Shown here piece by piece: positions 26,591 through 46,327 of a DNA stretch of 64,000 nt (the stretch's first letter is position 1; each line of letters begins with the position of its first letter). The position numbers and the translations under genes are program-made. Origin of the DNA: Novosphingobium sp. 9U (lineage in GTDB: Bacteria > Pseudomonadota > Alphaproteobacteria > Sphingomonadales > Sphingomonadaceae); contig NZ_LR732469.1 in assembly GCF_902506425.1 (NCBI RefSeq), positions 1,783,285 through 1,847,284 on the forward strand, in the 5' to 3' direction. The notes under the pieces are model-generated. The model worked only from the letters and a program-made list of their open reading frames with translations. It ran no database searches and was not told where the DNA came from.

Positions 26591-27625
26591 TTAACCCAAT
26601 CGCGGATCCACCAGCGTGCGCACCGGGGCACTCGGGCCCGAGAGGTTGGCGACGGCATCCGCCACCTCGCCCAGCCCGATGCGGCCGCCCAGCCATGGCG
26701 TCACGTCGATCCGCCCGTCGGCGATCGCACGCAAGGCGAGGTCCATGTCCTGCGGCTCCTCGCCACCCGCGAACTGGATGTTGAGGCGCTTGTTCTGCGC
26801 GGCGAACACGTAAAGGCTCTCGGCCTCCATGCAGTAGCCGCCCATCACGATCCGTCCATCGAACGGCGCCGCCTCGACGATCCGCTGCAGCATGCCCGGC
26901 TGGCCGACGCACTCGTAGATCAGGTTGACGCGGCGGCCGTCGAACTGCGGCAGCGGCGCGTAGGGGTCGCTCTCACGCGGGTCGATGGCGATGTGCGCGC
27001 CCGCCGCGATCGCCAGCTCGCGCCTACCTGGATGGAAGTCCGCGGCGACGATCGGGCCCACACCCATCAGCTTGAGCCCCGCGATGACGCCCAGGCCGAT
27101 CGCCCCGCAGCCCAGCACCAGAGCGGCATCGCCCTTGTCCGGCCGGCCACGTCGAGCATGCTCCAGGCCGACGGCCAACGGCTCCACAAGCGCGGCGTAG
27201 TCGTCTGGCAAGGCATCGGGCACTTCGATCAGGAAGTCCTCGTCGAGCAGCATCAGCTCGCCGAAGCCGCCGGGGCACTGGTGGCTGTAGCCGACGACGG
27301 CATGGCTGCCGCCCTGCCGCATGATCGGCACCGACACCACGCGGCGTCCCGTCTGCACGCTGCGCCGGCTTCCAGGCCCATAGTCGAGCACTTCGCCGAC
27401 ATACTCGTGCCCCGGCACGAAGGGGCGCGCGAAGTCGAGCGCGGCATAAGGGCCGCCCATCTTGCGCGAAAGCTCGATCAGGTTGTGCCCGCCGCTGAGG
27501 AAGTGCTGGTCCGAAGCGCACAACCCGCAGACATGCGTGCGCACCAGCGCCTGGCCCTTGCCGGGAACCGGGTCAGCCAGGCCGCCGACGCCGACCTTGC
27601 CGTCGGCGATGAAAGCCGCCTTCAT
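26591..27625 (-). CDS. Zinc-type medium-chain alcohol dehydrogenase
   Basis: A 344-aa MDR dehydrogenase with a GroES-like N half (VCGLCASDQH, PGHEYVGEV) and a Rossmann half (ALVLGCGAIGLG). The catalytic-zinc region is present, but the four-cysteine structural-zinc loop of classic alcohol dehydrogenases is not visible between the GHE motif and the Rossmann domain. NAD(P)-dependent oxidation of a pathway alcohol is the likely role. The start codon overlaps the LLM gene stop by 4 bp, and it is the last gene of unit B. Confidence 0.87.
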   Translation of the reverse strand: MKAAFIADGKVGVGGLADPVPGKGQALVRTHVCGLCASDQHFLSGGHNLIELSRKMGGPYAALDFARPFVPGHEYVGEVLDYGPGSRRSVQTGRRVVSVPIMRQGGSHAVVGYSHQCPGGFGELMLLDEDFLIEVPDALPDDYAALVEPLAVGLEHARRGRPDKGDAALVLGCGAIGLGVIAGLKLMGVGPIVAADFHPGRRELAIAAGAHIAIDPRESDPYAPLPQFDGRRVNLIYECVGQPGMLQRIVEAAPFDGRIVMGGYCMEAESLYVFAAQNKRLNIQFAGGEEPQDMDLALRAIADGRIDVTPWLGGRIGLGEVADAVANLSGPSAPVRTLVDPRLG

Positions 27626-28638
27626 GCTGCCACCTTCGCGGCCATCACTTCGCGCAAGCGCGGCATCGTCGCCTCGAGCAGGCGGAGCGATTTCCAGCCC
27701 TCCTCGGGCGAGAGGCCGCCGAGCAGCGGCTGGAAGCCGATGTTCGGCCCATCGGGCAAGGCAGCAACGCGCTCGACCAGCTGGTCGGGAGTCATCGCCG
27801 CGAACATGCCGGCCTGGCGCAGCACGGCCGGGTCGGTCAGCCCCTTGAATGGCGAGTTGGACTGCTCACCCTCCTGCTCGGCCCACTTGGCATATTCGGT
27901 GATGACGTGGACGGCATGCGGCGCGATCGCGTCCCACCCGGCATCGGGGTCCTCGCACAAGTGCACCGCGAGCGGCATGCCCTGCATCGGACGGAAATAC
28001 GTGCGCGGCGGCCGACCGGCCTTGGCGCACTCCTCCAGGTAGAGGTCCACCACCGTGCCGTTGATCGGGCCGAAGCCCACGTCGAAGCGCGCGGCGCGCT
28101 TGGCCGATGCGGGCACGCCCCCGCCGACGAGCACGATGTCCTCAGGGCTCTGCACCGGCAGCGGGCGGACGAAGATGGGGCGTCCCTCGGCCTCGAAGCG
28201 CTCTCCCTTCAACGCACGCAGGATCAGGTCGAGCCCCGCATCCATCAGCTTGCCCCGATCGCGCAAGGACTTGCGGAACATGGCGAATTCCAGCGGCACG
28301 TAGCCGGCGCCGAAGATCACGTTGATGCGCCCGTTCGACAGGTTGTCGAGAACCGCAATGTGCTCGGCCAGCTCCAGCGGATCGTGCAGCGGCAGGATCA
28401 CCGCGCCCAGGATGAAGCGGATGCGCTCGGTCACCGCGGCCATGCCGCCCGCCAGCGTGAACGGCTGCGGCAGGTAGCCATCATCCGAGCCGTGGTGCTG
28501 CATCAGCCCGATCTGGTCGGCGCCGATCCGGTCGACGAAGGCGGCCATCTCGATCGCGGCGCGGTAGAGCTGCGGCGTCGGCGTCGCCCAGGCAGGGCTG
28601 CGCATGTCGAACGAGACGGTGATCTTGCTGGCGGTCAT
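27622..28638 (-). CDS. LLM-class (luciferase-like) flavin-dependent oxidoreductase
   Basis: A 338-aa TIM-barrel protein of the bacterial luciferase superfamily (FILGAVILPLHDPLELAEHI, FGAGYVPLEF). Members are FMN- or F420-dependent monooxygenases; some are type II Baeyer-Villiger enzymes. Oxygenation of a pathway ketone fits the neighbours but the cofactor and substrate cannot be read. No flavin reductase gene is in the window. It is coupled by ATGA overlaps to the NTF2-like gene before it and the alcohol dehydrogenase after it. Confidence 0.87.
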   Translation of the reverse strand: MTASKITVSFDMRSPAWATPTPQLYRAAIEMAAFVDRIGADQIGLMQHHGSDDGYLPQPFTLAGGMAAVTERIRFILGAVILPLHDPLELAEHIAVLDNLSNGRINVIFGAGYVPLEFAMFRKSLRDRGKLMDAGLDLILRALKGERFEAEGRPIFVRPLPVQSPEDIVLVGGGVPASAKRAARFDVGFGPINGTVVDLYLEECAKAGRPPRTYFRPMQGMPLAVHLCEDPDAGWDAIAPHAVHVITEYAKWAEQEGEQSNSPFKGLTDPAVLRQAGMFAAMTPDQLVERVAALPDGPNIGFQPLLGGLSPEEGWKSLRLLEATMPRLREVMAAKVAA

Positions 28639-29138
28639 GCGGAGGCTTTCAGGCTGGCGTAAGAGGGGTCTTGGCGGTCGCGGCGTGCCCATTGGTGATC
28701 ATGGAGCGGCCGGACATCGCTCATCGCGTCGAAGTCGATCACGGTGTTGCGGTGGTCGATGCGCCAAGTGCCTTCACGCCGCGACCAGGTGTCGCAATAG
28801 CGGGCCCAGACCTGCATCTGGAACGGCTGGCCCTCGCGCAATCCACGCAGCGCCGCCATCACGTAGGCCTCGCTGCCGGCACGGTCGCCCTCGACCTCGA
28901 TCAGGATGTTGGTGACCTGGTGCGAGTGCGCCTGGAGCTTGAGATGCGCCTCGCAGATCCAGTCGATCGCGCCGCGACCCGTACCCTTGTAGCCGGTCGG
29001 GCCGTAATCTGCGGTCGCGTCCTCGTGGAACACTCCATGGCCTAGCGGCACGTCGAGCCGATCCACCGAACGGCAGTAGCGATAGATCTGCTCGGTGATC
29101 GCCTGCTTGTCGGCGAGGTCTGCTGTCACGTCGGTCAT
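28635..29138 (-). CDS. NTF2/SnoaL-like protein
   Basis: A 167-aa protein with an NTF2-like cone fold (ITEQIYRYCRSVDRLD, FHEDATADYG, WARYCDTWSRREGTWRIDHR). Related proteins act as ketosteroid-isomerase-like enzymes, cyclases, dehydratases or binding partners. It lies between the SDR and LLM genes with 4-bp overlaps on both sides. A truncated gene of the same superfamily lies at the right edge of the window. Confidence 0.85.
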   Translation of the reverse strand: MTDVTADLADKQAITEQIYRYCRSVDRLDVPLGHGVFHEDATADYGPTGYKGTGRGAIDWICEAHLKLQAHSHQVTNILIEVEGDRAGSEAYVMAALRGLREGQPFQMQVWARYCDTWSRREGTWRIDHRNTVIDFDAMSDVRPLHDHQWARRDRQDPSYASLKASA

Positions 29139-29947
29139 CCTTTCGCGGCGTAGGCGGCGGACATGGCGGCCACTGCCCGAATCCGCTCACGGCGCTGCGC
29201 AGCGGAGGTGGCGGACACGACGGCCTCGTCGTCCGCCTCGCCCCAGTTGCACACCGGTCCATGGGGCAGGCGCTCGAGGCCGAGACGGGCGACATCGTCG
29301 GGATCCGCCAGGTTGTCGGGGATCGCCATGCCGCGGGCCTCCATCAACTCTCGGTGCGCCGGCGTGTCTGTCCGGCCGATCACGTAGCTGAGCACGTCGA
29401 CCCCGTGTGGCTCCAGTTCGGCCCAGAGCGCCTCGCACAGGACGAGGTCGAACGCCTTGCTGGCCGCATAAACGCCGATGCCGGGCAGTCCGGCGTAGCA
29501 GGCACCCGACCCGACCACGATCATGCCGCCGCGGCCCCGCTCGCGCATCGGCGCGCCAAAGGCATGGAGCGCGCGCATGGTGGTCATGACGTTGCGCGTG
29601 GCGAGCGCATCCCAGTTGGCAATGGCATTGTCGAGGAACATGGAGCCGTTCGGATCAGCGCCGGCGTTGAGGATCAAGAGACCCACTTCGCGGTGCCCTG
29701 CCGCCTCGACGAGCCGAGCCGTGGCATCCTCAGCCGCGAGGTCGATGGTGGCGGTGACAACCTCAACACCATGGCGAGCGCGCAGCTCGTCCGCGAGCTG
29801 ATCGAGCGGAGCCTGGCGGCGAGCGACGAGGATCAGATCCAAGCCCGCTTCGGCCAATTGCCGAGCGAAGCTGGCGCCGGTACCTTCCGACGCGCCGGCA
29901 ATCAGCGCCCATGGCCCGTATCGACTTGCGAACGCCTCCGCTTCCAT
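29135..29947 (-). CDS. SDR-family NAD(P)-dependent oxidoreductase
   Basis: A 270-aa short-chain dehydrogenase. The cofactor motif is GASEGTGASFA, and the active-site pair reads VGSGACYAGLPGIGVYAASK with the Tyr and Lys of YxxxK. It should interconvert a pathway alcohol and ketone. ATG 29947 follows GGGAGAGAGC; an ATG at 29968 is less well placed. It is the first gene of unit B and diverges from the GbsR gene 67 nt away. Confidence 0.87.
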   Translation of the reverse strand: MEAEAFASRYGPWALIAGASEGTGASFARQLAEAGLDLILVARRQAPLDQLADELRARHGVEVVTATIDLAAEDATARLVEAAGHREVGLLILNAGADPNGSMFLDNAIANWDALATRNVMTTMRALHAFGAPMRERGRGGMIVVGSGACYAGLPGIGVYAASKAFDLVLCEALWAELEPHGVDVLSYVIGRTDTPAHRELMEARGMAIPDNLADPDDVARLGLERLPHGPVCNWGEADDEAVVSATSAAQRRERIRAVAAMSAAYAAKG

Positions 29948-30014
29948 CAATGCTCTCTCCCGCCCCATGGCAATTTGTTGTGGCCTCCGCGCTAAAATTC
30001 ATTAAATTCGGAAT

Positions 30015-30494
30015 ATGTCAAACATGAAGTTGTCTGCCGAGGATGAACGCTTCCTCGACGATATCGCAGTGCTGATGGCGCCGTGGGGCTGGGCGCGTCC
30101 GGTCGGGCGGATCTATGCCTACCTGCTGCTGCGCGACGGACCCGCGACGCTGGACGAAATTGCCTCAGACCTCGGCATGAGCAAGAGCAATGCCAGCGTC
30201 GCTGCCCGCACGCTGGAGCATTGCGGCAACGCCCGCCGCCACAGCGAGCCCGGCAGCAAGCGCATCTACTACGCCGTGCCCGATAGCCATGGCGGCTCGT
30301 TCATCGAACGCGCCGCGCTGCTGGGCCGGCTGCAAGGCCTGTTCGTGCGCCAGAGCGACCGCGACTTGCCGGCATCGGTGGTGGATCGGTTTGATACGCT
30401 CGCGGCCTTCTACGCCCGCATGCGCGAGGCGATGGAAGGGGTGATCGAGGGTGAGCAGGTCGGGCACCAGAAGCCAAGCCGTAGGGCAGGCTGA
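30015..30494 (+). CDS. GbsR/MarR-family transcriptional regulator
   Basis: A 159-aa protein with the GbsR-type winged helix: GRIYAYLLLRDGPATLDEIA followed by DLGMSKSNASVAARTLEHCG as the recognition region. A helical C-terminal part probably makes the dimer. It is divergent from unit B across an AT-rich 67-nt gap (AAATTCATTAAATT before the ATG) and is followed by the oxocamphor-hydrolase-like gene 24 nt later, so both may be its targets. ATG 30024 is an alternative start. Confidence 0.86.
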   Translation: MSNMKLSAEDERFLDDIAVLMAPWGWARPVGRIYAYLLLRDGPATLDEIASDLGMSKSNASVAARTLEHCGNARRHSEPGSKRIYYAVPDSHGGSFIERAALLGRLQGLFVRQSDRDLPASVVDRFDTLAAFYARMREAMEGVIEGEQVGHQKPSRRAG

Positions 30495-30518: not shown

Positions 30519-31277
30519 ATGGACCTGAGCGACTACGCCGAGAAGTATACCGGCATCCGCTTCACCCGTGAGGACGGCGTGCTGGAAATGACGCTGCACA
30601 CGCGCGGCGGTCCGGCGCTATGGGGCACCTCGCGCACCAGCCTCCATGCCGAACTGGGCGAGGCGTTCGCCGACTTGGCGCGCGACGCGCAGAACAAGGT
30701 GGTCGTGCTCACCGGCACCGGTGACAGCTTCCTCGCCGGCGCCGACCCGCAGGAGCGCTTCGACGAACCCGACATGGCTGACATGTGGCGCCGTATCCAC
30801 GAGGAGGGCCTGGCGCTGCTGCAAAATCTGCTCGCCGTGCCGGTGCCGATGATCGCGGCGGTGAATGGCCCGGCGCTGATCCATGCCGAGCTGGCGGTGC
30901 TCGCCGACATCGTCCTCGCCGCGCCGCACGCCGAGTTCGCCGATCTGGCGCACGTTCCGCAGGGGGCGGTGCCGGGCGATGGCGTGCACGTTGTCTGGCC
31001 GATGCTGCTGGGGCCGAACCGCGGCCGCTATTTCCTACTCACCGGCGAACGGATCGGGGCGGAAGAAGCGCTGCGCCTCGGCATGGTCGGCGAGGTGGTG
31101 CCGGCGGACCGGCTGCTCGATCGCGCCCGCGAGCACGCGCGTCGCCTGGCCACGCACTCGGCGCCGATGCTGCGCCACACGCGCAGTCTGCTGGTGCGCG
31201 AGCTGCGCCGGCGCATGTTCGACGAACTGGGCAGCGGGTTGGCGCACGAGGGGCTGGCGATACTGCTGGGACGTTAG
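30519..31277 (+). CDS. Crotonase-fold beta-diketone hydrolase, 6-oxocamphor hydrolase-like
   Basis: A 252-aa crotonase-superfamily protein. It lacks the second catalytic Glu of enoyl-CoA hydratases; that place reads AHVPQGAVPGDG. His43, His122, His145, Asp154 and Glu244 are all present, and four of the five fall at the same residue numbers I recall for Rhodococcus 6-oxocamphor hydrolase. Long stretches also agree with that enzyme, such as NKVVVLTGTG and NRGRYFLLTGE. 6-Oxocamphor hydrolase opens bicyclic beta-diketones by retro-Claisen cleavage without CoA. A ring-opening hydrolase is therefore likelier than a hydratase, though the true substrate is unknown. It lies 24 nt after the GbsR gene. 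Confidence 0.85.
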   Translation: MDLSDYAEKYTGIRFTREDGVLEMTLHTRGGPALWGTSRTSLHAELGEAFADLARDAQNKVVVLTGTGDSFLAGADPQERFDEPDMADMWRRIHEEGLALLQNLLAVPVPMIAAVNGPALIHAELAVLADIVLAAPHAEFADLAHVPQGAVPGDGVHVVWPMLLGPNRGRYFLLTGERIGAEEALRLGMVGEVVPADRLLDRAREHARRLATHSAPMLRHTRSLLVRELRRRMFDELGSGLAHEGLAILLGR

Positions 31278-31319: not shown

Positions 31320-32342
31320 CTAAGCCAACTCTCGCAACCCCTCCGCCAGCGCCGGCACGTCGGCCAGCGCCCGAAGCGCATCGTTCAGATGCGTGCACCC
31401 TTCAGGGCCGCGCAGCTGCGCCAGGACCTCGGCGCGGATTGCGTCGAGGCGCTTGCCGATCAGCCGCCCGGTGTTGTGGATCGCGCCGGGGCATTCGGAG
31501 AAGGGCAGGATGCGCGCCTCGGGCTCGAGTGTCAGGATCTCCAGCGTGTCGAGATCGCAGGTCGCGCGCAGCAGATACTCGTGGATCGCGACGCGGCCGC
31601 CCTCACGCAGCTTGGCGCTGTCCTGAAAGGCCGAATCGATCCGCAGCTGGCCTGCCGCCTCGTCGCGCACAACATCGATGCGGCGGGCGCGGCGGAAGCC
31701 CGGGCCGTCCTCGTCATGGAAGGCATGCCAGCCGTCTGGGTCGGCCGGGTTGCGCAGCTCGCCCGCGTCGGCATCGGCGACGTTGTTGGGCGGACCTTCC
31801 GGGCGCACGCCGGTGTTGCCCTCCTGCAGGCCCCAGCACACGTTTATGCGCTGCTCCATCATCCTCGCCATGGTCTCCTCGCCCATGCGAGCGCGCAGTT
31901 TCTCGACCCAGTCGGGGTACCACTGCGACCAGGCGAAGGCGGAGACCAGCGCGGTTCCGGAGATATCGTCCAGCACCAGGTAGAGCGGGTCGTTGCGCGC
32001 GATCAGCTGCGGCAGGCGCTCGCGCAGCACCATGCGCAAGTGGCCGCCGCCGCGCTCGCCCACCAGCGTGTCGATGCCGGCTTGCGGGGGATCGGCTTCG
32101 ATGGCGATGACCGTCTTGTCCTCGGTCATGCGCAGGCGAAAGCTGCCTTCCGCGAGCACCTCGCCATCCCCGCGGTAATCGGTGCGCATGTCGCGTGCGC
32201 GGCCGACCATCCGCCGCGGCGCCTCGGGCCCGTCGGGCCAGGCAACGTCGATGCTGGAGGTACGCCGCATCGAGTTCGCAGGGCGCGTAGGGGCCGGATT
32301 GGCCGTCGAGCGCGGGGGCGGGGGGTAGATCGTGGTCGCCAT
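31320..32342 (-). CDS. DUF2889 domain-containing protein
   Basis: A 340-aa protein. The C-terminal third has the DUF2889 features: ECPGAIHNTGRLIGKRLDAI followed by LRGPEGCTHLNDALRAL. The N-terminal half starts with a Pro-rich stretch and holds no known fold. DUF2889 proteins are often found with catabolic genes in proteobacteria, with no known reaction. ATG 32342 starts the protein; an upstream ATG at 32378 adds a basic, unlikely leader. It is the last gene of unit D. Confidence 0.82.
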   Translation of the reverse strand: MATTIYPPPPRSTANPAPTRPANSMRRTSSIDVAWPDGPEAPRRMVGRARDMRTDYRGDGEVLAEGSFRLRMTEDKTVIAIEADPPQAGIDTLVGERGGGHLRMVLRERLPQLIARNDPLYLVLDDISGTALVSAFAWSQWYPDWVEKLRARMGEETMARMMEQRINVCWGLQEGNTGVRPEGPPNNVADADAGELRNPADPDGWHAFHDEDGPGFRRARRIDVVRDEAAGQLRIDSAFQDSAKLREGGRVAIHEYLLRATCDLDTLEILTLEPEARILPFSECPGAIHNTGRLIGKRLDAIRAEVLAQLRGPEGCTHLNDALRALADVPALAEGLRELA

Positions 32343-32538: not shown

Positions 32539-33561
32539 TTACTCCGCCGCCACGCGGACCAGCAGCTTGCCGACGTGGTCGTGACCTGAGAACACGCTGG
32601 CGAAGGCCTCGGGCGCGGCATCGATGCTTTCGACGAAGGCCTCGGCGAAGCGGATCTTACCGGCCTTCATCCAGCCGGCGATGTCGTCCAAACCCTTCTG
32701 CCCTGCGAACAGCCCGGCAAAGCCCTTGATCTCCAGCGCCTTGTTCATGATCTGGCGGTAGAAGCCCGGCAGGTGATCGGGCCCAGGCCCTTCCATGCCG
32801 ACGCCATAGTAGGCGATGAACCCGCACATCGGCATGCGCGCGCCGCGCTTCAGGTGCGGCAGCACCGCCAGTGTCACGTCGCCGCCGACGTTCTCGAAAT
32901 AGACGTCCGCGCCCTCGGGCAGCGCGGCCTTGAGCTGCGCGTCGAAGTCGGGCGCCTTGTAGTCGGCCACCGCATCGAAGCCGAGGTCGAGCAGGCCTTG
33001 GCACTTCGCCTGGCCGCCGGCGATGCCGACCGCTCGGGCGCCGAGTGCCTTGGCGATCTGCCCCGCCATCGAGCCGACCGCGCCGCCTGCCGCAGAAATC
33101 ACGATCGTCTCGCCCGCCTGCAGCCGGCCGACCTTGACCACGCCCTCGTAGGCCGTCTGCCCCGGACCACCGAGCGCGCCGAGGGCCGTCGAGACCGGCG
33201 CCAGGGCAGGATCGAGCTTGCGCGGCGGCCCGCGATAATCGCTTTTGTCGGGCGCGACGACGGTCGTCTCCGCCCAGGGCGTGCGACCCTCGACATAGTC
33301 ACCTGCCGCGTAGTTCGGGTGGTTGGAGGCGATGACCTGACTCACCGTGGGGCCGATCATCGGCGCGCCCAGGTCCATCCGGCCCGCCCCTGTGATCGTG
33401 CTCTCGTCCAGCGAGAAGCGGATCAGCGGGTCGACCGCGATATAGAGCGTCCTGAGCAGCAGCTCGCCCTCACCCGCCTGCGGTTCCGCCACTTCCTCGA
33501 CGCGGAAGTCGGTGGCCTGCGGGTTGCCCCTGGCATAGCTGGCGAGGACGACCTGCTTCAT
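32539..33561 (-). CDS. NADP-dependent oxidoreductase, leukotriene B4 dehydrogenase/zinc-less MDR type
   Basis: A 340-aa medium-chain reductase without zinc ligands. The nucleotide motif is AAGGAVGSMAGQIAKALG, preceded by GGPGQTAYEGV, and the FENVGGD block is typical of the prostaglandin reductase/curA-like group. It should reduce an activated C=C bond of an enone with NADPH. ATG 33561 lies 5 nt after the P450 stop, so the two are co-translated. A far longer open frame to 34449 is antisense-like shadow sequence in the P450 gene. Confidence 0.88.
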   Translation of the reverse strand: MKQVVLASYARGNPQATDFRVEEVAEPQAGEGELLLRTLYIAVDPLIRFSLDESTITGAGRMDLGAPMIGPTVSQVIASNHPNYAAGDYVEGRTPWAETTVVAPDKSDYRGPPRKLDPALAPVSTALGALGGPGQTAYEGVVKVGRLQAGETIVISAAGGAVGSMAGQIAKALGARAVGIAGGQAKCQGLLDLGFDAVADYKAPDFDAQLKAALPEGADVYFENVGGDVTLAVLPHLKRGARMPMCGFIAYYGVGMEGPGPDHLPGFYRQIMNKALEIKGFAGLFAGQKGLDDIAGWMKAGKIRFAEAFVESIDAAPEAFASVFSGHDHVGKLLVRVAAE

Positions 33562-33566
33562 CGCGC

Positions 33567-34886
33567 TCACCGCAGCTTGACGGGAACGGCGGTCATGCCG
33601 CGGTGTTCGAGGCCGCGGTATTCGGGCTTGGGCTTCGCCGGATCGAGCGTCATGTTCGGGAAGCGATCGAGCAATCCGTTGATGGCGACGATCATCTCCT
33701 GGCGCGCGACTTCGATGCCCAGGCACCGGTGCGGACCGAAGCCGAAGCCCATGTTCGCCTGCTTTTTGCGGAAGATGTCGTACTCGCCCGGCCGCTCGAA
33801 GATCGCCGGATCGTGGTTGGCGGCGCCGAAGCACAAGTGCACGCGGGTGCCGGCGGGCACGAACACGCCCTCGACCGTCGCGTCCTCCATCGACAGGCGC
33901 GGCATTTCCGGATCGGTGCAGCGCCAGCGCAGCGATTCCTCGACCGCCAGCTCGACCAGCGAGCGATCGTCGCGGCAGGCATCCCAGAACTGGCGATGGT
34001 TCATCAGCGCGTCGATGGTGATGCCCAGCTGGCGCCAGGTGGTGCCGCCGCCCGCGAAGATCGCCAGCTTGCAGTAGCCGAAGATCTCGTCCTCGGTCAG
34101 CTTGCGCTTGTAGCCGTCCTCCTCGTCGACGATCTCGGCGGCAAGCAGCCCGGCAATCAGGTTGTCGCCCGGAGCGCGAGTGTTTTCCGCGATCAGCCCG
34201 CGCAGGGTATCGTCGACCCAGGCACGCGACGCGGCGGACTCCTCCGGCGGCAGCTTGGCAGCGCCGAAGGTTGCGCGTTCCAGCTGGTAGCGGAACTCGA
34301 TCACGTCCTCGCCCTCCAGCCCGATCGCACGGGTGACCGTCGCCATCGGCAGGCGGGCGCAAAGCTCGAAGTTGAGGTCGGTGGTCTCCTGCTCGAGCAG
34401 ACGGTCGAGCAGCGCGTCGACCGTTTCCTCGATCCAGCGCTTGTTCCACCAGTCGATGACCTTGGGCCGCTTGAACAGCGGCTGCGCGGCGGAGCGCAGG
34501 CGCTTGTGCGGCTTGCCGACCATCGACAGGATGGTGGTGCCGATCGTGCGCACGCCGGGGCTCTCGTTGTAGCCCTCGGAGGAGAACAGCAGGTTCTCGC
34601 GAAAGCCGATCTCGCAGGCGCGGTACGAGAAGAACGTCATCTCGTTGCGCGGCGGCCCCATCGCGTGGCTCATCTGCGGCACGCCCAGCAGCTCGCGCAA
34701 GCTACCCTGGTGGACGGGCGCCTTGTCACGCAATGCATTCATGTCATCGGTGTAGTCGCGGCCGCCGTCGACGCCGGCATTGGCACTCTGGCTGTTGACG
34801 TCGAACATCTGCGCATAGCGCGGATTGTCGCTCATCAGCGAGTTGAGCGCGTTCGAGCTGCGTCCCGTCATCGGGCAAGTCGCCAT
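33567..34886 (-). CDS. Cytochrome P450
   Basis: A 439-aa soluble P450. The heme loop FGFGPHRCLG has the thiolate ligand Cys388, the K-helix reads EESLRWR, and the I-helix reads AIFAGGGTTW. It would hydroxylate a pathway substrate using electrons from a ferredoxin and a ferredoxin reductase, neither of which is in the window. It sits 4 nt after the SDR stop. The family member and substrate are unknown. Confidence 0.93.
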   Translation of the reverse strand: MATCPMTGRSSNALNSLMSDNPRYAQMFDVNSQSANAGVDGGRDYTDDMNALRDKAPVHQGSLRELLGVPQMSHAMGPPRNEMTFFSYRACEIGFRENLLFSSEGYNESPGVRTIGTTILSMVGKPHKRLRSAAQPLFKRPKVIDWWNKRWIEETVDALLDRLLEQETTDLNFELCARLPMATVTRAIGLEGEDVIEFRYQLERATFGAAKLPPEESAASRAWVDDTLRGLIAENTRAPGDNLIAGLLAAEIVDEEDGYKRKLTEDEIFGYCKLAIFAGGGTTWRQLGITIDALMNHRQFWDACRDDRSLVELAVEESLRWRCTDPEMPRLSMEDATVEGVFVPAGTRVHLCFGAANHDPAIFERPGEYDIFRKKQANMGFGFGPHRCLGIEVARQEMIVAINGLLDRFPNMTLDPAKPKPEYRGLEHRGMTAVPVKLR

Positions 34887-34890
34887 GGGT

Positions 34891-35706
34891 TCAGGCTCCC
34901 GTCTTGCGGCCGGCGAACAAGCCGCCGTCGACCGGCAGGTTCACGCCAGTGATGTTGGATGCCAGGTCCGAGCAGAGGAACAGCGCCGCCGACGCGGTAT
35001 CGCGCGGTTCGATCGCCTTGCCCAGCGGATGGGCCTTGCCCATGCTTTCCAGGATGCGGTCCTTGTGCTCGCTGTCCGGGTCCATGCCGGCATAGTGGGT
35101 GAGCATGCCCGCGGGGCATACTGCGTTGACGCGGATGCCCTTGCCCGCGACTTCGATCGCAAGCGCGCGGGTGAACTGCACCACCGCGCCCTTGGTCGTG
35201 CCGTAAAGCACGCCGCCATAGCCCATCAGCCCCGCGACCGAGGCGGTGGACACGATCGCGCCGCCGCTGCCCTGCCCGGCCTCGGCTTGCTTCTCGAACT
35301 GGCGGATGGCCGCCTGTGAGCCATAGATGACGCCGTTGATGTTGACGTCCTCGACCCTCTTCATCTCTTCGGGCTCGCAATCGACCAGGCTCTTGAGGCC
35401 CTTGCCCGGGATCGGGTTCACGGTGATGCCGGCATTGTTGTAGATGATGTCGAGCCGGCCGAAAGCTTCGACCGCCTTGGCGACTGCCGCATCGACCGAT
35501 GCAGGATCGGCGACGTCGCAGCCGATCGCCACCGCGTCTCCGCCGGCCGCTTGCGCCATCTTGGCGGTTTCCTCGGCATTGGCGTCGTTGATGTCAGCGG
35601 CGACAACCTTTGCGCCGTGCTCGCAGAACAACAGCACCGCCGCGCGGCCCAAGCCCGAGCCGGCGCCGGTGATCACTGCGACTTTTCCCTGAACCAGACC
35701 GTCCAT
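34891..35706 (-). CDS. SDR-family oxidoreductase
   Basis: A 271-aa classical short-chain dehydrogenase. The cofactor site is TGAGSGLGRA, with Asp after strand 2 (VVAADIND) suggesting NAD(H). The catalytic region is STASVAGLMG followed by YGTTKGA. It may oxidise the alcohol made by the P450 encoded just downstream. Two adjacent ATGs (35706, 35709) follow GGGGAGAGC; 35706 has the better spacing. A palindromic element separates it from the aldehyde dehydrogenase. Confidence 0.88.
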   Translation of the reverse strand: MDGLVQGKVAVITGAGSGLGRAAVLLFCEHGAKVVAADINDANAEETAKMAQAAGGDAVAIGCDVADPASVDAAVAKAVEAFGRLDIIYNNAGITVNPIPGKGLKSLVDCEPEEMKRVEDVNINGVIYGSQAAIRQFEKQAEAGQGSGGAIVSTASVAGLMGYGGVLYGTTKGAVVQFTRALAIEVAGKGIRVNAVCPAGMLTHYAGMDPDSEHKDRILESMGKAHPLGKAIEPRDTASAALFLCSDLASNITGVNLPVDGGLFAGRKTGA

Positions 35707-35747
35707 CATGCTCTCCCCTCGTCCCTTTGCGTTCGTACCATGACCCA

Positions 35748-35890
35748 AGATCCTCCCCTGCAAGGGGAGGGGGACCGCCGCCGCAGGCGGTGGTGGAGGG
35801 GTGTCACCCTCTCGCGAGCGCGTGCCTTCACGAGTGACACCCCTCCGTCAGCCCTGCCGGGCTGCCACCTCCCCTTGCAGGGGAGGATCT
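35748..35890. repeat. 143-bp nested palindromic element, copy A
   Basis: Outer 22-bp arms (beginning AGATCCTCCCCTGCAAGG) are perfect complements at 35748-35769 and 35869-35890. A second perfect 13-bp pair, GGAGGGGTGTCAC, lies inside at 35795-35807 and 35834-35846. There is no coding sequence. It is related to the element at 40121-40266. It looks like a non-autonomous interspersed palindrome, MITE- or REP-like, and would form a long stem in the unit D mRNA. Confidence 0.8.
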
Positions 35891-35905: not shown

Positions 35906-37378
35906 TCACCCGCCGATATTCAGCGTGGTCATCATCTGGAACTCGCGCAGGCCTTCGATGCCGCGCTCGCGGCCCTGGCCGCTCATCTTGATGCCGCCGC
36001 CGCTCGCGTAAGTGGACATGACCGCGCCGTTGATGTTCACCGCGCCGCTACGGATCTTGAGGCCCACCTCAAGCGCCTTTACCTTGTCCGCGCCATGCAC
36101 CCAGCCCGAGAGGCCGAACTTGGAATCGTTCGCCATCTCCACCGCATGGTCAAGGTCGCGATAGCCGATCACGCCGATCACCGGTCCGAAGATCTCGTCC
36201 TTTGCCGCCGGGTTCTTGTTGTCCGGCAGGTCGAGCACCGTCGGCTCAAAGTAGAAGCCTTTGTCGAGATGGTCGGGTCGCTTGCCGCCTGCGACCACCT
36301 TGCCGCCCTCGGCCACCGCGGCTTCGACGAAATGCTCGCAGCGCGCCCGCTGGCCGGCGCTGATCACCGGGCCCAGCACCGTCGCCGGGTCGCTCGCCGG
36401 ACCGATCTTCACGCCTTCCAGCGCCTTCGCCATGCCTTCGAGCACCTGGTCCTTGCTCTCCTGCGGAACGAACACGCGCGTACCCAGCACGCAGCCCTGC
36501 CCTGCATGCGAGAGGCAAACGCTTGACGCTGCCGAAGCCGCGCGACCGACCGCGTCGGGCAGGTAGATCTGCGCCGACTTGCCACCCAGCTCCAGCACCA
36601 GCCGTTTGAGCGTGGGCGCCGCCTGCTCGGCCACTTTGGCGCCGACGGTGCACGATCCGGTGAAGCTGACCATGTCGACATCGGGGTGCGTGGTCATGGC
36701 CAGGCCGCCTTCGAGGCCCTGTTCCATGATCACGTTCATCACGCCTTTGGGGAGACCGGCTTCGTCCGCCGCTTCGGCGAAGACCAGCGAGGACAGCGGG
36801 GTCAACGGGTTGGGCCGCAGGATCACCGTGTCGCCCGCCATGAGCGCCGGTATCACCTTCCAGAACGCGGTGTAGAACGGCACGTTGTAGGCCGAGATTG
36901 CGGAGACCACGCCCAATGGCGACCAGCGCTTCAGGCTCTGCACCACGAAATAGGGATTCACCCGCTCGTGGATGGGGAGCGGGTTCTCCTCGTGTTCGGG
37001 CAGACGCAGGAACAGCTCGACGATCTCGTCCGTCATGCGCAGCGGCGTGTGGACCTGCGCGCCCATGACGTTGGACGAGACCGGGCAGCCTGCCTCCAGG
37101 ATGGCGCATTCCTTCAGCCGGTCGGCGCGGGCCCGCAGCGCATCGGCGTAGCGGGTCATGTACTTGGCCCGCTCCTTCATCGAGAGCCCCGACCAGCCGC
37201 CATCGTCGAAGGCCCGCCGCGCCGCGTTGATGGCTGCGATTGCCTGCGCCGAGGAGACGCCGGTCACGGTATCGACGACACTCTCGTCGGACGGGTTCTC
37301 GACATCGAAGGCCGCGCCCTCGCCCTTCACGAACGCGCCATCGATGTAGCCTGCGTAGTCCAGAGCGCCTCTCCACAT
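35906..37378 (-). CDS. Aldehyde dehydrogenase family protein
   Basis: A 490-aa NAD(P)-dependent ALDH. The catalytic Cys296 lies in HAGQGCVLG and the general-base Glu in LELGGKSA. It converts a pathway aldehyde to the acid, which could then be activated by the CoA ligase or CoA-transferase of unit A. ATG 37378 starts the typical N-terminus (YIDGAFVKGEGA). It is the first gene of unit D, divergent from the semialdehyde dehydrogenase across 206 nt that hold no further gene. Confidence 0.92.
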   Translation of the reverse strand: MWRGALDYAGYIDGAFVKGEGAAFDVENPSDESVVDTVTGVSSAQAIAAINAARRAFDDGGWSGLSMKERAKYMTRYADALRARADRLKECAILEAGCPVSSNVMGAQVHTPLRMTDEIVELFLRLPEHEENPLPIHERVNPYFVVQSLKRWSPLGVVSAISAYNVPFYTAFWKVIPALMAGDTVILRPNPLTPLSSLVFAEAADEAGLPKGVMNVIMEQGLEGGLAMTTHPDVDMVSFTGSCTVGAKVAEQAAPTLKRLVLELGGKSAQIYLPDAVGRAASAASSVCLSHAGQGCVLGTRVFVPQESKDQVLEGMAKALEGVKIGPASDPATVLGPVISAGQRARCEHFVEAAVAEGGKVVAGGKRPDHLDKGFYFEPTVLDLPDNKNPAAKDEIFGPVIGVIGYRDLDHAVEMANDSKFGLSGWVHGADKVKALEVGLKIRSGAVNINGAVMSTYASGGGIKMSGQGRERGIEGLREFQMMTTLNIGG

Positions 37379-44853: not shown

Positions 44854-45097
44854 ATATTCGCCCATGCTCGGATGCGTCGCTCGGAGCAAAACAGTTACGG
44901 CGCCTGTAGTTAGGCGGGACCGTCGATTGTGTCCGTATGCTCATAATCGTCGTGCAGCGGTAAGCCAGTTATTTGTACGTATGGACACCATAACCGGTCC
45001 ATTGAATACCTGATCCGGGCATCCCGGGCCGCCCTTCAATCCAAGCACATGCGCGCTGCCAATGCGTGCCTGTTCTGTTCTTGAGGGGGCAATCTCA

Positions 45098-46327
45098 ATG
45101 GCATTATCTTCTTACCGCGTTGCACTGTCGCTGGCTGGCGCCGCGATCTGTTCAGCGTTCATCGCCTCGCCCCGTGCGGAAGCGGCGACCTGCATCGGTA
45201 ATTGCGGCCACAACTTCGGCACCGCCGACGGTGTCATCAGCCCTGCGCCGGGCAGCTTCGGCGAGTACGACTGGGTCTCGACCGAGGAAGGCCTCAACGG
45301 AGCAGCACGGATCGCCGGCTATGACGGCGCTGCCACCAATGGATCGGAGCTGCTGTCCGACCTCTTCTTCGCGGCCGTCGGCCAGGTCGTCAGCTTTAAC
45401 TTCAATTACGTGACCTCGGACGGCTCGCAGTATGCTGACTATGGCTTTGCGCAGCTGATCAATACGACCACCAGCCAAGTGTACGAGCTGTTCAACGCAC
45501 GCACCGTGCCCGATGGCGCAATCATCCCCGGGCGTGACCTGCCGCCAGTGGTTGCAGAGTTGTCACCCGCGGTGGTCTCGATCAATCCCGGCGCGCCGAC
45601 ATGGTCGCCGCTCGGCGGGTCGAGCGGCGATTGCTACGCCGCCGGCTGCGGCTATACCGGCTGGATCGCCTCGAACTTCACGGTGCCGACCGAAGGCTCG
45701 TACCAGTTGCGCTTCGGTGCGGCGAACTGGCTAGATACGGCGTTCGACAGCGGTCTGGCTTTCAGCGGCCTGCTTCTCGACAACGCCACCATCGGCGACG
45801 GATCGAGCGTGGAGAACCCATTGCTGCCCCAGGAGATAGGGCCCAATGGCGAGTTCCAGTTCGAGTTCACGGCTACGCCCAACCAGACCGTCTTCGTCGA
45901 TCCGTTCATCGCGACCGGCTACGACTTTGAAGTCCAGTCCGGCCAGCTGATCCTCAGTGCGATCTTCCCAGAACTGGGCGATGCCAATGGCTACGACATC
46001 TATAGCCTGACCGACCTGGTCAACCCACTGGCGACTGGAATCGCCGGCGGCTCGCCGTTCAGCTTTGGCTCGGGCGTAAGCGGCTTTGCGCTTCGCGGCA
46101 TCGATGCGGCGCTGGCGCTGGACCCGGCCAACACGGGCGCGTTCGTCACCGGTCTGACCTTCGACGTCAGCGGCTCCACCACGATCCAGCTGACGCAGAC
46201 GCCGGTGACCGAGTTCTCCGCCGCCGTGCCCGAGACCTCGACTTGGGCGATGATGATCCTGGGGCTTGGCCTGCTCGGCGGCGCACTGCGGCGGCGATCG
46301 GCTCAAGCGCTTTTCGCTCCAGCCTGA
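45098..46327 (+). CDS. Surface protein with PEPxxWA-type C-terminal sorting signal
   Basis: A 409-aa exported protein. The signal peptide (about 1-30, ALSLAGAAICSAFIASPRAEA) is followed by a beta-rich region with a Cys pair (CIGNC) and a long NF-type repeat-free body. The C-terminus has VPETSTWAMMILGLGL, then a short hydrophobic helix and GALRRR, the PEP-CTERM variant recognised by exosortase. It should be exported, cleaved and anchored or released with exopolysaccharide. GAGGGGG precedes ATG 45098. The exosortase gene is not in this window. The 244-nt gap before it (44854-45097) shows no gene. Confidence 0.88.
   Translation: MALSSYRVALSLAGAAICSAFIASPRAEAATCIGNCGHNFGTADGVISPAPGSFGEYDWVSTEEGLNGAARIAGYDGAATNGSELLSDLFFAAVGQVVSFNFNYVTSDGSQYADYGFAQLINTTTSQVYELFNARTVPDGAIIPGRDLPPVVAELSPAVVSINPGAPTWSPLGGSSGDCYAAGCGYTGWIASNFTVPTEGSYQLRFGAANWLDTAFDSGLAFSGLLLDNATIGDGSSVENPLLPQEIGPNGEFQFEFTATPNQTVFVDPFIATGYDFEVQSGQLILSAIFPELGDANGYDIYSLTDLVNPLATGIAGGSPFSFGSGVSGFALRGIDAALALDPANTGAFVTGLTFDVSGSTTIQLTQTPVTEFSAAVPETSTWAMMILGLGLLGGALRRRSAQALFAPA

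Follow-up and report, generated by a model that had tools for sequence, protein, structure and literature searches.

The closest described systems to the gene analysed here are two crotonase-fold enzymes, 6-oxocamphor hydrolase (OCH; PDB 1o8u and 1szo), which we take to come from Rhodococcus sp. NCIMB 9784, and the Anabaena beta-diketone hydrolase ABDH / ALR4455 (PDB 2j5g and 2j5s). Enzymes of this type are useful for desymmetrising diketones. The five-residue catalytic set of OCH is presumably His45, His122, His145, Asp154 and Glu244. One study lists H43, H144, D153 and E243 as residues already known to be catalytic in ABDH, and proposes beta-diketone hydrolase activity for the M. avium protein 3q1t, which has H44, D144, H146, D155 and E244 in the positions that are catalytic in ABDH (PMC3584854). 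With 3qk8 and 7m3w, that protein is one of the EchA15-type crotonases. Our gene lies in a 64,000-nucleotide stretch of the Novosphingobium sp. 9U genome (contig NZ_LR732469.1, positions 1,783,285 to 1,847,284), hereafter the window, and its product is, by sequence and predicted structure, a member of the crotonase-fold beta-diketone hydrolases (the OCH/ABDH group). On sequence grounds it is not an OCH orthologue, because it falls in a separate subclade.

Among PDB chains, the window protein matched OCH best (1o8u, 7.6e-64, 219 bits; 1szo, the H122A form, 1.8e-62), then ABDH (2j5g, 4.5e-59), and the next match was EchA15 3qk8 at 9.2e-24. Its only Pfam matches were ECH_1 (7.2e-34) and a weak ECH_2, and no NCBIfam model reached its cut-off (best 129.7 against 292). 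In the tree, a 41-row clade that includes OCH and ABDH (100/100) stood apart from 11 other crotonases; the OCH and ABDH rows span only chain residues 9-249 and 16-256, and a long-branch warning applies among the outgroup rows. Within this clade OCH grouped with L017, L018 and L021 (97/92), and the window protein with a 14-row sphingomonad group (100/99). The predicted fold was likewise closest to OCH and ABDH, with structural-alignment identities of 46% and 40%, respectively. Sequence, tree and predicted fold thus uphold the placement made in the original prediction, and the result that would have contradicted it, a better match to hydratases that carry both catalytic Glu residues, was looked for and did not occur: the window protein lacks that pair of Glu residues and is no closer to EchA15 than to OCH or ABDH. 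The warning that the default name misleads was also apt, as the named close homologues are called enoyl-CoA hydratase/isomerase or enoyl-CoA hydratase/carnithine racemase (among 120 of 4845 matches listed, most of them nameless).

The open reading frame has a strong coding bias (G+C of 0.78/0.46/0.88 at codon positions 1/2/3) and a GGAG motif 7 bases 5' of its ATG. H43, H122, H145, D154 and E244 stand at exactly the numbers first proposed for them, and their conservation in relatives is well beyond chance. The phmmer alignment with OCH 1o8u gives H122, H145, D154 and E244 the same numbers and sets window H43 against OCH His45; 1szo, a His122Ala mutant by its entry title, departs from 1o8u at column 122. 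Loss of the second catalytic Glu, also claimed at the outset, is evident: the window protein has E124 and H145, and since four crotonases of the same genome (L004, L005, L008, L012) have Glu at both columns, the signature clade retains the first hydratase Glu and has the second swapped for His. Forty-three aligned rows, the window protein, OCH and ABDH included, carry H122, H145 and D154, and all share H27, W/F/Y35, E124 and D142 (L006, L014, L022 and L046 were left out of the alignment by length or duplicate filters). H43 is present in 42 of these 43 (Gly in L024) and E244 in 40 (Gln in L023 and L025, a gap in the truncated L057). Eleven signature positions are invariant in an alignment of 38 sequences (29 of 120 listed proteins, the window's included, plus 9 loci). 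The C-terminal tail of CoA-type crotonases takes part in coenzyme A (CoA) binding. An EKR-type tail, detected by a simple sequence pattern, was found in none of 39 full-length signature proteins and in 14 of 25 other crotonases; its absence suggests CoA-independence.

From the family, the residues, the predicted fold, the neighbourhood and the co-occurrence described below, we infer a reaction, a cyclic substrate and an order of pathway steps. Overall we favour, with a probability of about 0.65, the view that the protein splits a 1,3-diketone hydrolytically by a retro-Claisen reaction, the diketone probably being cyclic and formed by a P450 acting with a dehydrogenase. That the protein hydrolytically cleaves a beta-dicarbonyl C-C bond of some kind appears quite likely; whether it acts on a cyclic diketone in free form, not bound to CoA, we regard as evenly balanced. 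In specifying the substrate and the absence of CoA, the original prediction went beyond what the evidence carries. The roles of single residues proposed here follow what is known of the OCH and ABDH mechanism. By analogy with those enzymes, water activated by His145 would attack one carbonyl of the bound 1,3-diketone, the C-C bond between the two carbonyls would be cleaved, and the resulting enolate would be held and protonated by Asp154, aided by His43, His122 and Glu244, yielding a keto acid without use of CoA. The diketone would probably arise from an alicyclic ketone by P450 hydroxylation followed by oxidation by a short-chain dehydrogenase/reductase (SDR) or zinc alcohol dehydrogenase (Zn-ADH), the same logic by which P450, dehydrogenase and OCH act on camphor, and the acid would probably then enter CoA-dependent degradation.

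The genes surrounding the hydrolase gene are collected in Table 1. To its left lie a divergent group of SDR, SnoaL-like, luciferase-like monooxygenase (LLM) and Zn-ADH genes, with three genes between that for the LLM and the hydrolase gene, and to its right a convergent group of DUF2889, CurA-like, P450, SDR and aldehyde dehydrogenase (ALDH) genes. The regulator and hydrolase genes are probably operon partners, co-transcription being suggested by their spacing. All neighbours named earlier are present: P450s (33567 and 40841), SDRs (29135 and 34891), Zn-ADH (26591) and a FAH protein (39139). The CurA-like reductase scored 319.7 bits against NF058644, in a search run on an over-long reading frame, and is not an equivalog of that model, whose cut-off is 440. 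The best solved relatives of the P450 at 33567 are mixed, so nothing follows for its substrate, and a scan for promoters and terminators found nothing useful. The DUF2889 protein (31320-32342) is strongly conserved in relatives: of 120 sequences listed, 35 were aligned, and all have the motif GCTHLND. A passage of one paper mentions a fold relation of DUF2889 without detail (PMC4520260). Farther off, a PEP-CTERM protein gene (45062-46327; weak motif match, 5e-05) lies between ispG and rpoC.

Table 1. The hydrolase gene and its neighbours in the window
Feature	Position	Strand	Evidence and remarks
Zinc alcohol dehydrogenase, conserved neighbour	26591..27625	-	PF00107/PF08240
Luciferase-like (LLM) monooxygenase, conserved neighbour	27622..28692	-	PF00296 1.4e-36
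SnoaL_4-like protein	28635..29138	-	PF13577 2.2e-25
SDR oxidoreductase	29135..29968	-	PF00106 7.6e-33; divergent from regulator
MarR/TrmB-like helix-turn-helix (HTH) regulator	30015..30494	+	PF01978 2.5e-06; 24 bp upstream of hydrolase gene
Crotonase-fold beta-diketone hydrolase homologue, 252 aa	30519..31277	+	ATG start; H27 W35 H43 H122 E124 D142 H145 D154 H157 W160 E244
DUF2889 protein, 340 aa, conserved neighbour	31320..32342	-	PF11136 3.5e-24; ATG at 32342
CurA-like double-bond reductase	32539..33561	-	NF058644; ATG at 33561
Cytochrome P450, conserved neighbour	33567..34886	-	PF00067 1.4e-23
SDR oxidoreductase	34891..35763	-	PF13561 1.1e-58; 4 bp from P450 gene
Aldehyde dehydrogenase, conserved neighbour	35906..37378	-	PF00171 2.3e-126

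A scan of genome contigs provided 41 loci for comparison, several with flanks that end at contig ends: 13 close sphingomonad loci at 69-78% identity, 18 distant loci at 49-57% (Chloroflexi/Dehalococcoidia/SAR202, Gammaproteobacteria, one Sphingobium, one Actinomycetota and others), and 10 other-crotonase loci at 30-39%. The 13 close loci have genes for P450 (11), SDR (12), ALDH (8), DUF2889 (7, as the next gene), LLM (6), Zn-ADH (5), CurA-like reductase (3) and a POR + DUF6537 oxidoreductase (3). The LLM gene adjoins the hydrolase gene in L027, L032, L034, L035 and L036 and lies on the other side in L029; Zn-ADH is linked to it in L032, L034, L036, L037 and L039. The 18 distant loci include P450 in 6, LLM in 6 and SDR in 7, and L045 and L049 have hydrolase, LLM, P450 and HpaB genes in a row. 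The 10 other-crotonase loci (L058-L067) have P450 in 1, SDR in 3 and LLM in 1 flank, a weak control because flank lengths vary and the queries came mostly from the window's lineage. The P450 and dehydrogenase setting pointed out in the original prediction thus recurs in relatives. The FAH gene, part of the same argument, is present in the window but does not appear to belong to the conserved neighbourhood: it had no match in 33 loci, although at 7.9 kb from the hydrolase gene it is near or beyond several flank ends. Two loci on contigs titled as a Klebsiella pneumoniae metagenome-assembled genome (MAG), L052 and L056, group tightly with Gammaproteobacteria MAGs (100/100), and that label is probably wrong.

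In L033, L037 and L039 a POR + DUF6537 2-oxoacid:ferredoxin oxidoreductase-like gene (1161 aa in L037, from the cultured Novosphingobium sp. JCM 18896) stands beside the hydrolase gene in place of the LLM gene; two of these loci, L037 and L039, have a class III CoA-transferase gene next to it as well. The oxidoreductase is presumably of the same family as EdcC. An estrogen (edc) pathway, which may still apply, was considered on this account and not adopted; the oxidoreductase adjoins the hydrolase gene in those three loci but not in the window, and the two copies in the window's own genome lie elsewhere, at C1:2422448 (60%) and C1:2324650 (45%). The word 'luciferase' is absent from the text of the edc paper (PMC7793797).

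Relatives also occur on plasmids (55 records); among the 20 listed, 17 are named enoyl-CoA hydratase, 1 crotonase, and 2 are nameless. Six plasmid neighbourhoods were examined, with 7 kb shown and incomplete gene tables. On a Paraburkholderia plasmid the genes for P450, GMC oxidoreductase and hydrolase follow one another, and ferredoxin, reductase and SDR genes are close by; one Novosphingobium and one Rhodococcus plasmid have a P450 within ~8 kb of the hydrolase gene; a P450 search in plasmids returned one record, at 39%. On the Arthrobacter sp. StoSoilB3 plasmid (L105) an OCH-like gene whose product is 43% identical to the window protein adjoins an annotated cytosine deaminase gene, with RraA nearby, and its substrate could be a cyclic 1,3-dicarbonyl heterocycle. 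On pLA3 of Novosphingobium pentaromativorans US6-1 (L102) a more distant OCH-like gene (45%) comes after a gene for a molybdopterin-dependent oxidoreductase, with genes for a thiamine diphosphate (ThDP)-binding protein, SDR, ALDH and P450 near.

The protein search returned 4845 matches at E <= 1e-20 among 8000 scored candidates, a figure that is not a clade count because other crotonases are included. At E <= 1e-45, the hydrolase was present in 49 of 195 genus genomes, 10 of 199 in the family sample and 3 of 299 in the phylum sample, the source genome being part of each count. One family genome has three OCH-like copies within 31 kb (G017:C1:893099-924036). Co-occurrence was scored with cut-offs of E <= 1e-104 for the close hydrolase, E <= 1e-139 for the window P450 and E <= 1e-100 for DUF2889. 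The P450 was found in 22 of 25 close-copy genus genomes against 16 of 170 others (Fisher 6e-16), and DUF2889 in 22 of 25 against 34 of 170 (Fisher 4e-11). Hydrolase and P450 shared a contig in 12 of the 22 genomes and lay on different contigs in 10, which need not mean far apart because many of the genomes are drafts; with the 12 removed, the comparison was 10/13 against 16/170 (1e-7). DUF2889 was itself linked to the P450 across the genus (34/56 against 4/139 genomes).

Several observations weigh against the diketone-cleavage reading. The window protein is about 46-49% identical to OCH and sits in a different subclade, and identity of this order does not fix the substrate. The Fisher tests ignore phylogeny, and their cut-offs were set after the listings had been viewed. 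No association appeared in the 24 genomes with only a distant hydrolase copy (P450 in 2, DUF2889 in 5). Among the 25 close-copy genomes, G343, G377 and G378 have no P450 that reaches the cut-off, and G338, G343 and G378 have no DUF2889 (in G343 a DUF2889 fragment lies at a contig end); one of the 25 close hydrolase copies, in G302, has an in-frame stop. The hydrolase is not obligatory in the P450 block, since in 16 genomes of the genus the window P450 occurs with no close hydrolase copy. On three of the six plasmids examined (Streptomyces, Arthrobacter, Sphingobium), no P450 was listed within 7 kb, in gene tables that are incomplete. The remaining such points concern CoA. A class III CoA-transferase gene ends ~10-40 bp upstream of the hydrolase gene in 5 of the 13 close loci, so CoA chemistry is close at hand, and acyl-CoA carboxylase and AMP-ligase genes lie ~5-11 kb from the hydrolase gene in the window. 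CoA-thioester ring-opening hydrolases do exist, in the crotonases EchA20 and BadI. Two paralogues from the same genome, L002 (C20:187353) and L003 (C1:2783977), have His43, Asp142, His145, Asp154 and Glu244 as in the window protein and keep a CoA-type C-terminal tail, so that His43, His145, Asp154 and Glu244 alone are no proof of CoA-independence.

These CoA-related genes, the carboxylase and CoA-ligase genes in the window and above all the CoA-transferase gene beside five relatives, make a ring-opening hydrolase of the same chemistry acting on a CoA thioester, as for BadI or EchA20, the main rival. We nevertheless consider it unlikely: sequence, tree and fold group the window protein with the free-diketone hydrolases OCH and ABDH (EchA20 and BadI lie outside the alignment), and the CoA-type tail is absent. 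L002 and L003 themselves lack H27, H122 and E124 and fall outside the OCH clade; they may carry out the same chemistry on CoA thioesters. Among solved chains 3rrv is the closest to both, with OCH far lower (1e-27 to 1e-28), and a description as EchA15-like was dropped, EchA15 being nearly tied for L002 and lower for L003. It is less probable still that the 1,3-diketone cleaved is acyclic or a side chain. CurA acts on curcumin, an acyclic 1,3-diketone, and a CurA-like gene lies two genes downstream of the hydrolase gene; a curcuminoid hydrolase, CurH, is moreover reported from Rhodococcus no. 34 (PMC12981152), and a cited title terms it a "beta-diketone hydrolase". Against this, the CurA-like protein falls short of its equivalog cut-off and the products named in the entry titles of the two solved relatives are cyclic. 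CurH itself belongs to the thiolase family and not the crotonases. A standard enoyl-CoA hydratase or isomerase, dependent on CoA and with residues that have drifted, would accord with the ECH_1 match and the family name given to relatives, but it is very improbable given His for the second Glu in 43/43 signature rows, the missing tail, the lack of any NCBIfam model at cut-off and the far greater closeness to OCH and ABDH. Camphor as the specific substrate was not adopted; the LLM matched 3,6-diketocamphane monooxygenase weakly (0.0001), and the hydrolase lies outside the OCH subclade. A paper covering the Pseudomonas camphor route gives no OCH route in the passages at hand (PMC4097962).

The window protein is therefore a further member of a known enzyme group, in a branch for which we found no paper: the literature searched, which included few subscription papers, yielded none on an OCH/ABDH-type clade in sphingomonads. 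Only two members with solved structures, OCH and ABDH, are among the PDB matches despite many sequence relatives, and the eleven-residue signature together with the missing tail offers a simple annotation rule. If hydrolytic retro-Claisen cleavage is the correct assignment, sphingomonads and some Dehalococcoidia/SAR202 would repeatedly use hydrolytic diketone cleavage, beside P450s, to open rings. For SAR202, Baeyer-Villiger monooxygenases have been proposed as ring openers, and the passages available from that source contain no hydrolytic diketone route (PMC5395668). More tentatively, the sphingomonad branch together with its relatives in SAR202/Dehalococcoidia and the Gammaproteobacteria might constitute a broad family of enzymes that open rings hydrolytically and without CoA, and that have been overlooked under the name enoyl-CoA hydratase. 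Such enzymes would follow P450 (and luciferase-like) oxygenation when alicyclic, terpenoid-like or steroid-like compounds are broken down, and would offer a non-oxidative step that either accompanies Baeyer-Villiger ring opening or takes its place.

Set beside the known systems, the window protein has the fold and the first catalytic Glu position (E124) in common with enoyl-CoA hydratase, and differs from it in having His145 for the second Glu, the OCH-type Asp154 and Glu244, and no tail. Relative to OCH, the alignment has a three-residue insert between W35 and H43, and camphor is not indicated as the substrate of the window protein. ABDH has Phe at the W35 column and pairs in the tree with L019.
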